NCBI GenBank assembly: GCA_021813425.1
Contig: JAKAKQ010000270.1
Span: 1-35,523 of the forward strand
DNA: 35,523 bases
Direction: 5' to 3'
Source: Nitrospirota bacterium
GTDB taxonomy: Bacteria; Nitrospirota; Thermodesulfovibrionia; Thermodesulfovibrionales; UBA6898
Shown here: one piece after another, positions 5,557 to 15,608 of the stretch
How positions within the stretch are numbered: position 1 is the first letter of the stretch
Layout: each line of letters starts with the position of its first letter
The notes under the pieces: generated by a model
Databases searched by the model: none
What the model saw: only the letters and a program-made list of their open reading frames with translations
Told to the model about the DNA's origin: nothing
Translations under genes and position numbers: made by a program

Positions 5557-5741
5557 TTAATTCATAAATTTTACTGAATGCCGAAAGGATATAGTATTTG
5601 AGCGGTTTTATTTGGCCGATATTCAGACAGTATATATTTTGATAAATAAAGAGGGCAAATTCCTCGGAGGTCGAAGACCGAGAATGAGCGAGGATACTAT
5701 GTCCTTTCGTTATTATCATAGTTTATGAATTATCCGGGCTA
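5557..5741. repeat. MITE-like palindromic element, copy 1
   Basis: Stem CGAAAGGATATAGTAT (5582-5597) / ATACTATGTCCTTTCG (5694-5709). Interior and outer GTTTATGAATTATCCGGGCT (5721-5740) match, inverted, the element at 14057-14246. Confidence 0.75.
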
Positions 5742-11565: not shown

Positions 11566-12687
11566 ATGTCAAAGGTCTACTTCGCATCTTCACGTACAAA
11601 AAAATGGAGTTACGACGACAGCATGCCGGGTAAACTGGAAAGGCTTTTGAAGGAAATAGGCATGATGAATTATTTCAGCCCTGATGAATGGGTTGCAGTA
11701 AAGACCCATTTTGGCTCTGAAGGCGCACACAGGATAGTAAGACCGGTCTTCTTAAGGAAGGTTGTGGATGCCCTGAAAAGAATAGGGGCCAGGCCATTTG
11801 TTACAGATACTGTAAGGATAAAGGGCCTTGATTATCTTGAGGTTGCAAACCAAAACGGGATAAATCATCTTTCAGTAGGCTCTCCGGTTGTCCTTGCAGA
11901 CGGTCTTTACGGTAATGATAATTTGATGGTCAAGGCAGGGGAGATTCTTGGTGAGATTGCGATAGCCTCAGTTATTTATGATGTCCCGGCCATGGTTGTC
12001 TGTTCTCATGTGAAGGGGCATATTAATTCGGGGTACGCTGGGGCGATCAAGAACCTTGCAATGGGAGGGGTGAGCGGATATCACCGCACATACGGATGGA
12101 AATGCGGGAGAGGTTCAATGCATACAATAGGGGAAGGAGAGCTTGTCTGGGATGCTGAAAAATGCGAATTGTGCTATCAGTGCAGGGATGTATGTCCGCT
12201 GGATGCCATTCAATTTAAGGATGATGAACTGGTTTGGGAAGATAATGTATGCTGGAGGTGTGGAAGGTGCGAGCGGGTCTGCCAGTCCGAGTCCCTGACA
12301 CTTCCCGGGGACAGCGAGAGATTCATACGTTCACTTGCTGAGGCTGCACGTGCTGTAATAAGTACCTTTGAGCCAAATAAAATAATCTATATTAATTTTA
12401 TGGCAGAGATCCAGCCTGAATGTGACTGTATGCCTGCCGCAGATGTCCCTGTAATTCAGGATATAGGAATCCTTATATCTGAAGATATCGTATCTATAGA
12501 GCAAGCGAGCATTGATATGCTTCTCGGATCGCTTCCCCTGCCGGGTTCTCTTGCAAATGACAGGGATATAAAAGATGGAGAAGACATTATAATGAAATTA
12601 CACAATAAGCCCTATATCTTACAGATAGAAGAAGCTGAAAGGCTTGGTCTTGGTTTAAGAAAATATGAACTTATTGAAATAAAATAA
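11566..12687 (+). CDS. DUF362 domain-containing ferredoxin-like protein
   Basis: KTHFGSEGAHRIVRPVFLRKVVDALK plus two 4Fe-4S motifs (CELCYQCRDVCP, CWRCGRCERVC). Confidence 0.92.
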   Translation: MSKVYFASSRTKKWSYDDSMPGKLERLLKEIGMMNYFSPDEWVAVKTHFGSEGAHRIVRPVFLRKVVDALKRIGARPFVTDTVRIKGLDYLEVANQNGINHLSVGSPVVLADGLYGNDNLMVKAGEILGEIAIASVIYDVPAMVVCSHVKGHINSGYAGAIKNLAMGGVSGYHRTYGWKCGRGSMHTIGEGELVWDAEKCELCYQCRDVCPLDAIQFKDDELVWEDNVCWRCGRCERVCQSESLTLPGDSERFIRSLAEAARAVISTFEPNKIIYINFMAEIQPECDCMPAADVPVIQDIGILISEDIVSIEQASIDMLLGSLPLPGSLANDRDIKDGEDIIMKLHNKPYILQIEEAERLGLGLRKYELIEIK

Positions 12688-12880: not shown

Positions 12881-13549
12881 ATGTTTGACATCAGGCAGGT
12901 ATCGATATTCAGCACATTAATCCCACAGGAAGCCAGAGAGATAATTCCGTATCTTATGCCTGACAAATTCGTAAAAAAAGAGACCATTTTTTCCGAGGGC
13001 GACCAGTCTGAATGGTTCTATATTGTTACAAAAGGGAAGGTTAAGATAACAAAGATATCCCAGGAAGGCAAAGAGATAATTTTAGAGATCATTTCACCAA
13101 AAGATTTTTTTGGCGGTATAGCTGTTGTAAGGGGATTCCCTTATCCTGCCAATGCCGTTGCTATGGATGATACAGAGGTCCTGAAAATCTCGAGAAATAA
13201 TCTCATGAAGATAATGGACAGATTCCCGAACCTTATGTATTGTATGGCAACTAATATAGGGGACAGGATAAAAGACTCTCACGAGATGATCAAGAGTATA
13301 GCTCTCGAAAAGGTGGAATCAAGGATTGCATCACTGCTTATAAAACTGTCGGACAAGGCCGGGGAAAAGACTGCTGACGGTATGATGATAAACATCAAGC
13401 TTACAAAGCAGGACATAGCAGAAATGGTCGGGACAACAGTAGAGACATCCATCAGGACCATGAGCAAGTTTTCAAAGCAGGGGCTGATAGCATCAAAGTC
13501 CGGAAGGATTGTTATCAGGGACCTCGAAAAGCTGAAGTCCCTGACATAA
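12881..13549 (+). CDS. Crp/Fnr-family transcriptional regulator
   Basis: cNMP-binding-like N-domain (ETIFSEGDQSEWFYIVTKGKVKI) and HTH LTKQDIAEMVGTTVETSIRTMSKFSKQGLI. No FNR-type cysteine cluster. Confidence 0.94.
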   Translation: MFDIRQVSIFSTLIPQEAREIIPYLMPDKFVKKETIFSEGDQSEWFYIVTKGKVKITKISQEGKEIILEIISPKDFFGGIAVVRGFPYPANAVAMDDTEVLKISRNNLMKIMDRFPNLMYCMATNIGDRIKDSHEMIKSIALEKVESRIASLLIKLSDKAGEKTADGMMINIKLTKQDIAEMVGTTVETSIRTMSKFSKQGLIASKSGRIVIRDLEKLKSLT

Positions 13550-13555
13550 ACGGTT

Positions 13556-13957
13556 TTATGCTTTGGGCAGAAGGGTCGCAAGCATATTGTAAAAAAACAA
13601 ACCGATCGAGACCACCTGTAGCGCTCCGAAAACTGCTGCAAATCCTTCAAAAGTCTTCAAAGGCATAAACACATTCAGCGTGTAAAATAAAAGCATGCCG
13701 ATGAGGCTGATGTTTGCTGCAAGGAAATGCAATTCTCCAAGTTGTGGATATCTAAGCGGTCTTCCGGAAAACCGTGGCAGAACATGGTATCCGACCCCGT
13801 AGATCATCATCGAGACCCATCCGAGCATATTAAGATGGGAATGCACAAACTTTAGCGACATTAGAGAGGGATACCTCAGCATGCATACGCCCAGTATTGA
13901 TGAGATTCCAAGATAGATTATGCTTGAGATAATAAAATTTTTGACAAACCTGTCCAT
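13556..13957 (-). CDS. Miniature cytochrome oxidase subunit I (CcoN/NorB)-like membrane protein
   Basis: 133 aa, about 4 TM segments; LKFVHSHLNMLGWVSMMIYGVGYHVLPRFSGRPL resembles heme-copper oxidase subunit I. SD aaggagg before ATG. Confidence 0.7.
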   Translation of the reverse strand: MDRFVKNFIISSIIYLGISSILGVCMLRYPSLMSLKFVHSHLNMLGWVSMMIYGVGYHVLPRFSGRPLRYPQLGELHFLAANISLIGMLLFYTLNVFMPLKTFEGFAAVFGALQVVSIGLFFYNMLATLLPKA

Positions 13958-14021
13958 ATTTCCTCCTTAAAATATTTACATGATTTCTGCATTAATCATA
14001 TAACAGAAAATTCAAGCCGTC

Positions 14022-14037
14022 TATGATAAATGTCATA
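14022..14037 (-). promoter_or_regulatory. Crp/Fnr-type operator, -41.5 of predicted promoter for the mini-oxidase gene
   Basis: TATGA-taaatg-TCATA. -10 TATGAT on minus strand at 14000-13995. Confidence 0.65.
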
Positions 14038-14056
14038 AAGCATCTTTATTATTCAT

Positions 14057-14246
14057 AGCCCGGATTATTCATAAACTGTTGCAGGTGGAAGGCGGGATAT
14101 AGTACTCTCGCTCATTCTCGCTGCGCTCCGAGGCTTTTGCCTCTTGATCTAACAGAAACATACTGTCGGAATATCGGCAAAAGAAACCGCTCGAATACTA
14201 TATCCCGCCTCATTCTGGCTTGCTTTGTTTGAAATTCATGAATAAT
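14057..14246. repeat. MITE-like palindromic element, copy 2
   Basis: Stem AGGCGGGATATAGTA (14090-14104) / TACTATATCCCGCCT (14196-14210). Outer AGCCCGGATTATTCATAAAC (14057-14076). Matches copy 1 in inverted orientation. Confidence 0.75.
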
Positions 14247-14301
14247 GTGAGATAGAAAAGGCTGGGAGTTTATCAGATGCTGACAATTCAACTCCTACAA
14301 G

Positions 14302-14317
14302 TATGACAAAGGTCATA
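14302..14317 (+). promoter_or_regulatory. Crp/Fnr-type operator, -41.5 of predicted promoter for the DUF1858 operon
   Basis: TATGA-caaagg-TCATA; -10 TAAAAT at 14339-14344. Confidence 0.65.
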
Positions 14318-14376
14318 TCATTCATTTTTCTCATCGGCTAAAATGAAGATATAAAAAATTAAATAAGGAGGATAAG

Positions 14377-14586
14377 ATGAACGCAACAAAAAAACTCGTG
14401 ACAAAGGATTCCATAATCGGAGATGTTATCAGGGAACAGCCGGGTGCAAAAGACGTCATACAGAAGTATTTCGGTGGCGGATGTTTTACCTGTCCGGGAA
14501 TAAATATGGAGTCAATAGCTTTTGGGTCCATGATGCATAACCTTGACCCTGACAAGATTGTGAAAGAAATAAACGAACTGGCATAA
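14377..14586 (+). CDS. DUF1858 domain protein (hybrid-cluster-associated redox disulfide-like)
   Basis: MNATKKLVTKDSIIGDVIREQPGAKDVIQKYFGGGCFTCPGINMESIAFGSMMHNLDPDKIVKEINELA; SD aaggagg. Confidence 0.85.
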   Translation: MNATKKLVTKDSIIGDVIREQPGAKDVIQKYFGGGCFTCPGINMESIAFGSMMHNLDPDKIVKEINELA

Positions 14587-14619
14587 TAGTCAGGCCTGAG
14601 AAACCGAGGAGGAATAAAA

Positions 14620-14748
14620 ATGGCATTAAAATGTTTTATCTGTGGAATATCGGACAAAGAAAGGGTTTTGCTCAAGTGTGTGCATGAAGGCGACGAAAAG
14701 TATGTATGTGTAAGATGCCTGCCTGTTCTCATTCACGGCGGCCATTAA
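14620..14748 (+). CDS. 42-aa four-cysteine zinc-ribbon-like microprotein (absent from the ORF track)
   Basis: MALKCFICGISDKERVLLKCVHEGDEKYVCVRCLPVLIHGGH*; SD gaggagg upstream; CxxC...CxxC. Confidence 0.7.
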   Translation: MALKCFICGISDKERVLLKCVHEGDEKYVCVRCLPVLIHGGH

Positions 14749-14765
14749 TATGTTAATATCTTTCA

Positions 14766-15608
14766 ATGCGCAGGATAGGAGTACATACCTCTATTGCAGG
14801 AGGGCTGCATTGCAGCTTAGAAAGGGCAAGAGAACTCGGATGCAATACACTTCAGATCTTTTCGCACAATCCGAGGGGATGGTCTGTAAAGGGCAGAGGC
14901 CCGGATGAAATAAGGTCATTCAGAGAATTAAGAAAGACATATGACATTGCACCTGTATTTATCCATACGTCATATCTGATCAATTTAGCTTCGAGGGACC
15001 GGGATCTGATAGGAAAATCTATAGATATGGTTATCTTCGAGATGAATATAGCAGATGAGATAGGAGCTGATTATATTGTTTTGCATACAGGGAGCGCAGT
15101 AGGTGAAGACCCAAAAACCGCAAGGAAAAGGGCTATAGACTGTCTTTCCCAGGTTTCAGAAAAGGGAAAATGGAATGCAGGGCTTTTGCTTGAGAATACA
15201 GCGGGGGAAAAGGGGGATATCACATCAAAGATCCGGGAGATTTCTGAAATATCAGATAAAACCCCTGCCGGTCTGATCTCAGGCATATGCGTAGATACAT
15301 GCCATGCTTTTTCTGCAGGATATGATTTCAGATCAATTAAAAGCATAAAATTGATCTCAGACGAGATTGATCAATATATCGGCAGAGAGAAAATAAAGCT
15401 TCTGCATCTTAATGACTCAAAAGGTGTGCTCGGCTGCGGAGTTGACAGGCATGAACATATTGGTAAGGGGAAGATAGGCATGAAAGGCTTCAGGGATTTA
15501 TTGAACTATCCTTTTTTTATTGATATCCCCATAATCCTTGAGACACCCAAAAAATCAGAAGATGATGACAAAAGAAATTTAAAGGCTGTAAGAAAGTTAA
15601 TCAATTAA
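14766..15608 (+). CDS. nfo: Endonuclease IV
   Basis: IGVHTSIAGGLHCSLERARELGCNTLQIFSHNPRGW...GICVDTCHAFSAGYD...LLHLNDSKGVLGCGVDRHEHIGKG. Confidence 0.95.
   Translation: MRRIGVHTSIAGGLHCSLERARELGCNTLQIFSHNPRGWSVKGRGPDEIRSFRELRKTYDIAPVFIHTSYLINLASRDRDLIGKSIDMVIFEMNIADEIGADYIVLHTGSAVGEDPKTARKRAIDCLSQVSEKGKWNAGLLLENTAGEKGDITSKIREISEISDKTPAGLISGICVDTCHAFSAGYDFRSIKSIKLISDEIDQYIGREKIKLLHLNDSKGVLGCGVDRHEHIGKGKIGMKGFRDLLNYPFFIDIPIILETPKKSEDDDKRNLKAVRKLIN

Follow-up and report, generated by a model that had tools for sequence, protein, structure and literature searches.

Organization of the regulator locus

The locus lies in a window of 35,523 nucleotides, by which we mean the whole stretch of DNA that was analysed. 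The source genome, that of an uncultivated bacterium, is a draft of 3.51 Mb, 98% complete; the related genomes compared with it are also drafts, and genes were assigned as simple open reading frame calls. The following features were recognized in the window:

12881-13549, plus strand: regulator of the CRP/FNR family, 222 aa, recognition helix TTVETSIR (assigned from Pfam, orthologues and an AF2 model)
13556-13957, minus strand: mini-CcoN, a four-helix membrane protein of 133 aa, related to the CcoN segments around the H-x-H heme ligands
13995-14000, minus strand: predicted -10 hexamer TATGAT of the mini-CcoN promoter, starting 21 nt past the end of operator 1
14022-14037, no strand assigned: putative operator 1, TATGATAAATGTCATA, predicted centre at -41.5 for the minus-strand mini-CcoN gene
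14302-14317, no strand assigned: putative operator 2, TATGACAAAGGTCATA, predicted centre at -41.5 for the DUF1858 operon
14339-14344, plus strand: predicted -10 hexamer TAAAAT of the DUF1858 operon, starting 21 nt past the end of operator 2
14365-14373, plus strand: ribosome-binding site AAGGAGGAT, assigned from sequence
14377-14586, plus strand: DUF1858/TIGR03980 ('hybrid cluster protein-associated redox disulfide domain') protein, 69 aa
14620-14748, plus strand: microprotein of CxxC-C-CxxC type, 42 aa, with an LPVLIHGG tail
14766-15608, plus strand: endonuclease IV-like gene (AP_endonuc_2; nfo), Pfam PF01261 at 144.8 bits

The mini-CcoN gene had been described as mini-oxidase-like in an earlier, sequence-only reading of this DNA, a description that did not survive closer comparison. 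Its sequence profile matched CcoN, subunit I of the cbb3 oxidase (PDB 8smr, E=3e-8), with nucleotides 13559-13957 aligning to residues ~302-390 only; this segment includes the H-x-H heme-ligand motif, and H39, H41 and H58 of mini-CcoN are invariant in the alignment, whilst the segment of CcoN that carries the CuB ligands is missing. The AF2 model (pLDDT 86) comprises four helices, and a structure search with it returned heme-copper oxidases first (7qho_D, TM 0.76), no match having an E-value below 0.001, so that it is the sequence profile that carries the relationship; the Pfam COX1 score was below its cut-off. A complete mini-oxidase or heme-copper oxidase subunit I was thus rejected, there being four helices, an H-x-H segment and no CuB-ligand region. 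Without copper ligands, mini-CcoN cannot work as an oxidase by itself, and it is plausibly a heme-b protein devoid of CuB.

The neighbouring operon had been read as encoding a DUF1858 protein and a four-cysteine microprotein. The former assignment was upheld, with 47 bits in Pfam (cut-off 32.2) and 51.2 bits for NCBIfam TIGR03980 (cut-off 44.95); the latter required correction, as the microprotein possesses five cysteines (C5, C8, C20, C30 and C33), all invariant in 15 sequences. Its 14 orthologues are 64-79% identical, and no Pfam or NCBIfam family exceeded the cut-off for this protein. The endonuclease IV-like gene begins 17 nt past the microprotein stop codon and, since the adjacency is kept in 13 family loci, where the same order occurs within ~22-136 nt, it is probably the last gene of the DUF1858 operon. 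As a likely operon member, it links the module to DNA repair.

Operator sites and promoter geometry

The two TATGA-N6-TCATA palindromes had been noted previously as perfect, and both are exact at the positions given above, with no further exact match anywhere in the window. When one mismatch was allowed, four matches were found against 1.9 expected from shuffling, which lies within the shuffled range, and the two one-mismatch matches found elsewhere represent the chance level. The window alone is therefore no proof of function, and for this reason the test was sought in relatives. Provided that TATGAT and TAAAAT are the -10 hexamers, both operators would be centred at -41.5, as had been claimed, each hexamer starting 21 nt past its site.

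This spacing recurs in related genomes. Among 45 aligned promoters, the best -10 hexamer was positioned 21 nt past the site in 32 and 22 nt past it in another five, where shuffling expects 1.7, and a set of 67 promoters from further candidate genes showed the same peak (27 at 21 nt, 9 at 22 nt). The distance from site to predicted -10 hexamer is that of the class II CRP/FNR arrangement, for which a separate -35 element would not be needed. In the 45-promoter alignment the ten half-site bases were fixed by the search pattern; the base following the half-site, which was left free, was C or T in all 45 on one side and A or G in 44 of 45 on the other, the four central spacer bases and the flanking positions being variable. 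Judged from this alignment, the full consensus is TATGAYnnnnRTCATA. A literature search at the level of titles retrieved no relevant title for this motif, and the recognition word was not found described before.

The intergenic gap at this locus is long because a copy of a dispersed inverted-repeat element (14064-14246) lies between the two promoters. This element, present in ~40 copies in the genome including another at 5587-5741, is outside the regulon. No Rfam match was obtained within the window.

Conservation of the operators in relatives

Lack of the sites in orthologous loci had been named as one of the outcomes that would refute the proposed regulon. The exact site was found in 50/58 mini-CcoN and 38/40 DUF1858 upstream regions (distinct Nitrospirota regions, near-identical ones removed), and 2000 shuffles of these regions never yielded more than one exact site. 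A first count in related genomes had given the exact site in 25 of 26 mini-CcoN and 20 of 21 DUF1858 promoters; in 80 named contigs, which share some genomes with that first set, it was present in 43/50 mini-CcoN promoters (49/50 with one mismatch) and 31/32 DUF1858 promoters. On the strength of these comparisons, we consider both palindromes to be conserved operators. The layout of the locus, with the regulator gene followed by the oppositely oriented mini-CcoN gene, the site or sites, and the DUF1858 and five-Cys genes, is preserved in most of the related genomes with regulator matches. Upstream of the regulator, a DUF362/ferredoxin gene (11566-12687) is a conserved neighbour in the family, and no operator was seen before it.

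The regulator protein

The regulator combines an N-terminal cNMP-type jelly roll with a C-terminal winged helix-turn-helix, the architecture of the CRP/FNR superfamily, and both its Pfam domains scored above cut-off (cNMP_binding, PF00027, 3e-24; HTH_Crp_2, PF13545, 5e-20). Its AF2 model (pLDDT 90) was matched by Foldseek to CRP/GlxR, the nearest solved structures being cAMP-binding proteins of this kind; no NCBIfam equivalog was reached at its cut-off. Matches were retrieved from 39/41 related genomes (E <= 1e-30), with orthologues mostly 52-83% identical across the order, and the closest named relatives reside in Nitrospirota MAGs, several of them labelled Thermodesulfovibrionales.

The domains and residues agree with the earlier description of a Crp/Fnr-type protein that has the helix VETSIR and no FNR cysteine cluster. 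The N-terminal FNR-type cluster is absent from the regulator (P0003) and its orthologues, in which C121 is the only conserved cysteine, and an FNR-type Fe-S cluster is consequently unlikely; an Fe-S FNR was rejected on these grounds and on the operator, which is TATGAYnnnnRTCATA instead of TTGATnnnnATCAA. The phosphate-binding cassette reads GGIAVVRGFPYPANA, invariant at most positions, and lacks equivalents of E72 and R82, the CRP residues that contact cAMP. With no Glu/Arg cassette, cAMP is unlikely as the signal and a cAMP-type CRP was rejected. Autoregulation through the same site was likewise rejected, the best match upstream of the regulator having four mismatches here and two to four in orthologues.

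In CRP numbering the recognition helix reads V(180)-E(181)-T-S-I(184)-R(185), with E, I and R invariant in 20/20 aligned orthologues, and the invariant Ile occupies the position of the FNR Ser. FNR likewise has V at 180, and for this reason we suspect that the Ile at the Ser212 position helps to set half-site base 3, which is A in TATGAYnnnnRTCATA. Residue 180 itself has been tied to half-site base 3 across HcpR, DNR and NnrR (Rodionov et al., PMC1274295).

Members of the regulon

In its own genome the Y/R form of the site occurs nine times, compared with once for a reversed control, and eight of the nine sites are upstream of genes. The exception, C350:9433, lies inside a coding ORF and was dismissed as probably due to chance. 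Outside the window, sites precede a norC-norB pair, a CBS-domain gene and a NapH-like gene (two sites) on contig C50, a cupin gene followed by a ferredoxin gene on C362, and nrfH-nrfA-napA on C349. Pfam and NCBIfam identified a NorC-type cytochrome c, the COX1 family for NorB, NrfH above cut-off and Cytochrom_C552 for NrfA; NorB and NorC were named from Pfam and residue patterns, with no equivalog above cut-off, and the NapA match is a partial, contig-internal stretch.

A scan of this genome and its relatives for the motif near hcp, nor and DUF1858 genes, as the sequence-only reading had proposed, thus located sites before norCB here, before DUF1858 in the relatives counted above, and before hcp in eight relative genomes, 69-95 nt ahead of the start codon (two were tested, and both exceeded the TIGR01703 cut-off by far). 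An hcp gene with a site was not found in the source genome, whose single Prismane match is of CODH size. Further genes behind the site in relatives encode frdX-like ferredoxins, a flavodiiron protein, a multiheme cytochrome, cupins and CBS-domain proteins. In three genomes classed as Nitrospira-like by a nirK neighbourhood like that reported for Nitrospira (PMC5596200), the site separates a regulator of 33-36% identity from an adjacent nirK-like multicopper gene (L310, L311 and L312), and TATCCT, TATGGT and TATCCT follow exactly 21 nt past the site. The postulated redox or nitrosative-stress module is supported by norCB, nrfHA-napA, hcp, nirK-like, flavodiiron and frdX-like members; of the small Crp/Fnr regulon that had been envisaged, the operators stand as conserved in orthologous loci, and the membership extends far past the two promoters of this locus.

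Distribution of sites and regulator

In a survey of 108 genomes from the phylum, an orthologue of at least 50% identity went with a mean of 6.24 sites (control 0.59) and an orthologue below 33% or none with a mean of 0.91 (control 0.21), the control counts of the 33-38% group being included only in part. Site number was associated with presence of the orthologue at p = 3e-11, a value that overstates independence because the genomes are interrelated. Some genomes have few sites despite an orthologue (G038, one; G026, two), and in the draft assembly of G016, which has eight sites, no orthologue was found. Only one further full-length CRP/FNR match was obtained from the source genome, and its helix, VRAVVNR, is unrelated. 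The adjacent regulator, named earlier as the reader of the sites, is the best candidate for that role, as the sites track its orthologues; another regulator might also recognise AT-rich sites such as TATGATTTAAATCATA.

Comparison with known systems

By targets and residues, the regulator resembles HcpR (HcpR1/HcpR2), a CRP/FNR protein of anaerobes without the FNR cysteine cluster, whose half-site varies with the recognition-helix residues (Rodionov et al. 2005, PMC1274295). Both share hcp, ferredoxin-like and nrfHA targets and a nitrosative-stress logic, and the operator that in HcpR precedes hcp and ferredoxin-like genes has its counterpart in the relatives, before hcp in the eight genomes and before frdX-like ferredoxins. 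The half-site TATGAY matches none of those published for HcpR, namely TGTGA (Desulfovibrio), TTGAC (Geobacter and others) and GTAAC (HcpR2) (PMC1274295), and the targets here also include norCB, mini-CcoN, DUF1858, five-Cys microprotein, nfo, cupin and CBS genes. DNR and NnrR are likewise CRP/FNR activators of nirK, nor and related genes without a cysteine cluster, though the DNR site is TTGATnnnnATCAA (PMC1274295), whereas position 3 of the half-site is A here. A Nitrospira CRP/FNR homologue has been grouped with NnrR (PMC8510549), and another account (PMC5596200) notes that several Nitrospira carry a copy of fnr ahead of nirK, comparable to the regulator homologue, nirK-like gene and operator at our three Nitrospira-like loci; the portions of that account drawn on here mention neither an operator nor a link to a Thermodesulfovibrionales regulon. 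No paper joining Nitrospirae and HcpR was found in the literature that was searched.

Proposed mechanism and alternatives

The best reading of these data is that the regulator is a class II activator of the HcpR/DNR/NnrR kind, with a new half-site, and that it serves nitrogen-oxide and NO-defence genes. The sequences show the sites, their conservation, their spacing to a -10 hexamer, the gene content and the co-occurrence; the identity of the binding protein, activation as opposed to repression and the NO signal are inferred. We consider it likely that a homodimer of the protein encoded at 12881-13549 would bind TATGAYnnnnRTCATA, centred at -41.5, and activate transcription in the class II CRP/FNR manner, most likely when its N-terminal domain senses NO or a nitrogen oxide related to it; this signal is proposed because the gene set points to it. 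Heme sensing is known for HcpR (PMC12750200). The regulator sequence offers no proven heme ligand, and the counterpart of Met68 of Porphyromonas gingivalis HcpR (PMC12750200) could not be assigned. Locally it would control mini-CcoN, whose gene is divergently oriented, and the operon of DUF1858 and the five-Cys microprotein, probably with nfo, and the other targets in this genome would be norCB, nrfHA-napA, the cupin-ferredoxin operon and the CBS-domain and NapH-like genes. The local genes may serve in the reductive removal of NO and the repair of NO damage, through a DUF1858 thiol redox protein, a metal- or thiol-binding microprotein, a heme-b-type membrane protein and an AP endonuclease.

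The unremarkable one-mismatch count in the window would allow the palindromes to be chance features of an AT-rich intergenic region, an origin that was rejected and whose probability we regard as practically nil in view of conservation and -10 spacing far above shuffles and the nine genomic sites, eight of them upstream of genes, against one in the control. Another transcription factor might read TATGAYnnnnRTCATA and the neighbouring CRP/FNR gene be a bystander, as the sites of G016 with no detected orthologue would permit; the symmetric 16-bp operator with CRP geometry, the conserved adjacency of regulator and site, their co-occurrence across the phylum and the failure to find a further CRP/FNR protein with an E..R helix in the genome make this very improbable.

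The same regulator and operator could instead respond to oxygen limitation or general redox state, as FNR or FixK do, the NO genes then being part of an anaerobic respiration regulon. The nrfHA-napA, NapH-like and cytochrome targets would suit such a role, and oxygen sensing is frequent among CRP/FNR regulators; yet the cysteine cluster that an Fe-S sensor would carry at its N-terminus is absent from the regulator, the most repeated targets of assigned function (hcp, norC, nirK-like, flavodiiron and the TIGR03980 domain) are reactive-nitrogen genes, and Nitrospira-like genomes, probably those of aerobic nitrite oxidisers, retain the site at nirK, all of which leads us to consider an oxygen or redox signal unlikely. 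Action mainly as a repressor released by its signal has a precedent in HcpR2 of D. desulfuricans, proposed to repress hcp (PMC5701242), but appears improbable here, as a predicted centre at -41.5 that replaces the -35 element and is constant over dozens of promoters is what class II activation predicts.

Returning to activation by nitrogen oxides, we propose a broader reading, in which our confidence falls slightly short of even: that a Nitrospirota-wide nitrogen-oxide regulon exists with its own operator class (TATGAYnnnnRTCATA, V/T-E-T-x-I-R helix), and that its most conserved targets form an undescribed NO-defence module (the CcoN-derived four-helix heme protein, TIGR03980 thiol protein, five-Cys microprotein and AP endonuclease) rather than known NO enzymes. 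Thermodesulfovibrionales and Nitrospira are important in sulfur and nitrogen cycling and are mostly without genetics, and a readable operator would allow their nitrogen-oxide genes to be listed from sequence. The operator further suggests possible control of Nitrospira nirK, indicates small uncharacterised proteins as conserved parts of a nitrogen-oxide response and would extend the helix-operator code of the HcpR-like proteins by another half-site.

Additional genes behind the operator

The operator was also observed repeatedly before genes of a CPSCS-type family of ~150 aa with no Pfam match (L155:2524-2970; also L158, L165, L178 and L071). A single gene run behind the operator in a distant family of this phylum (L317:1359-2767) encodes a NIR_SIR-domain protein, a cupin and mini-CcoN, which connects mini-CcoN with the regulon by evidence independent of the DUF1858 locus.
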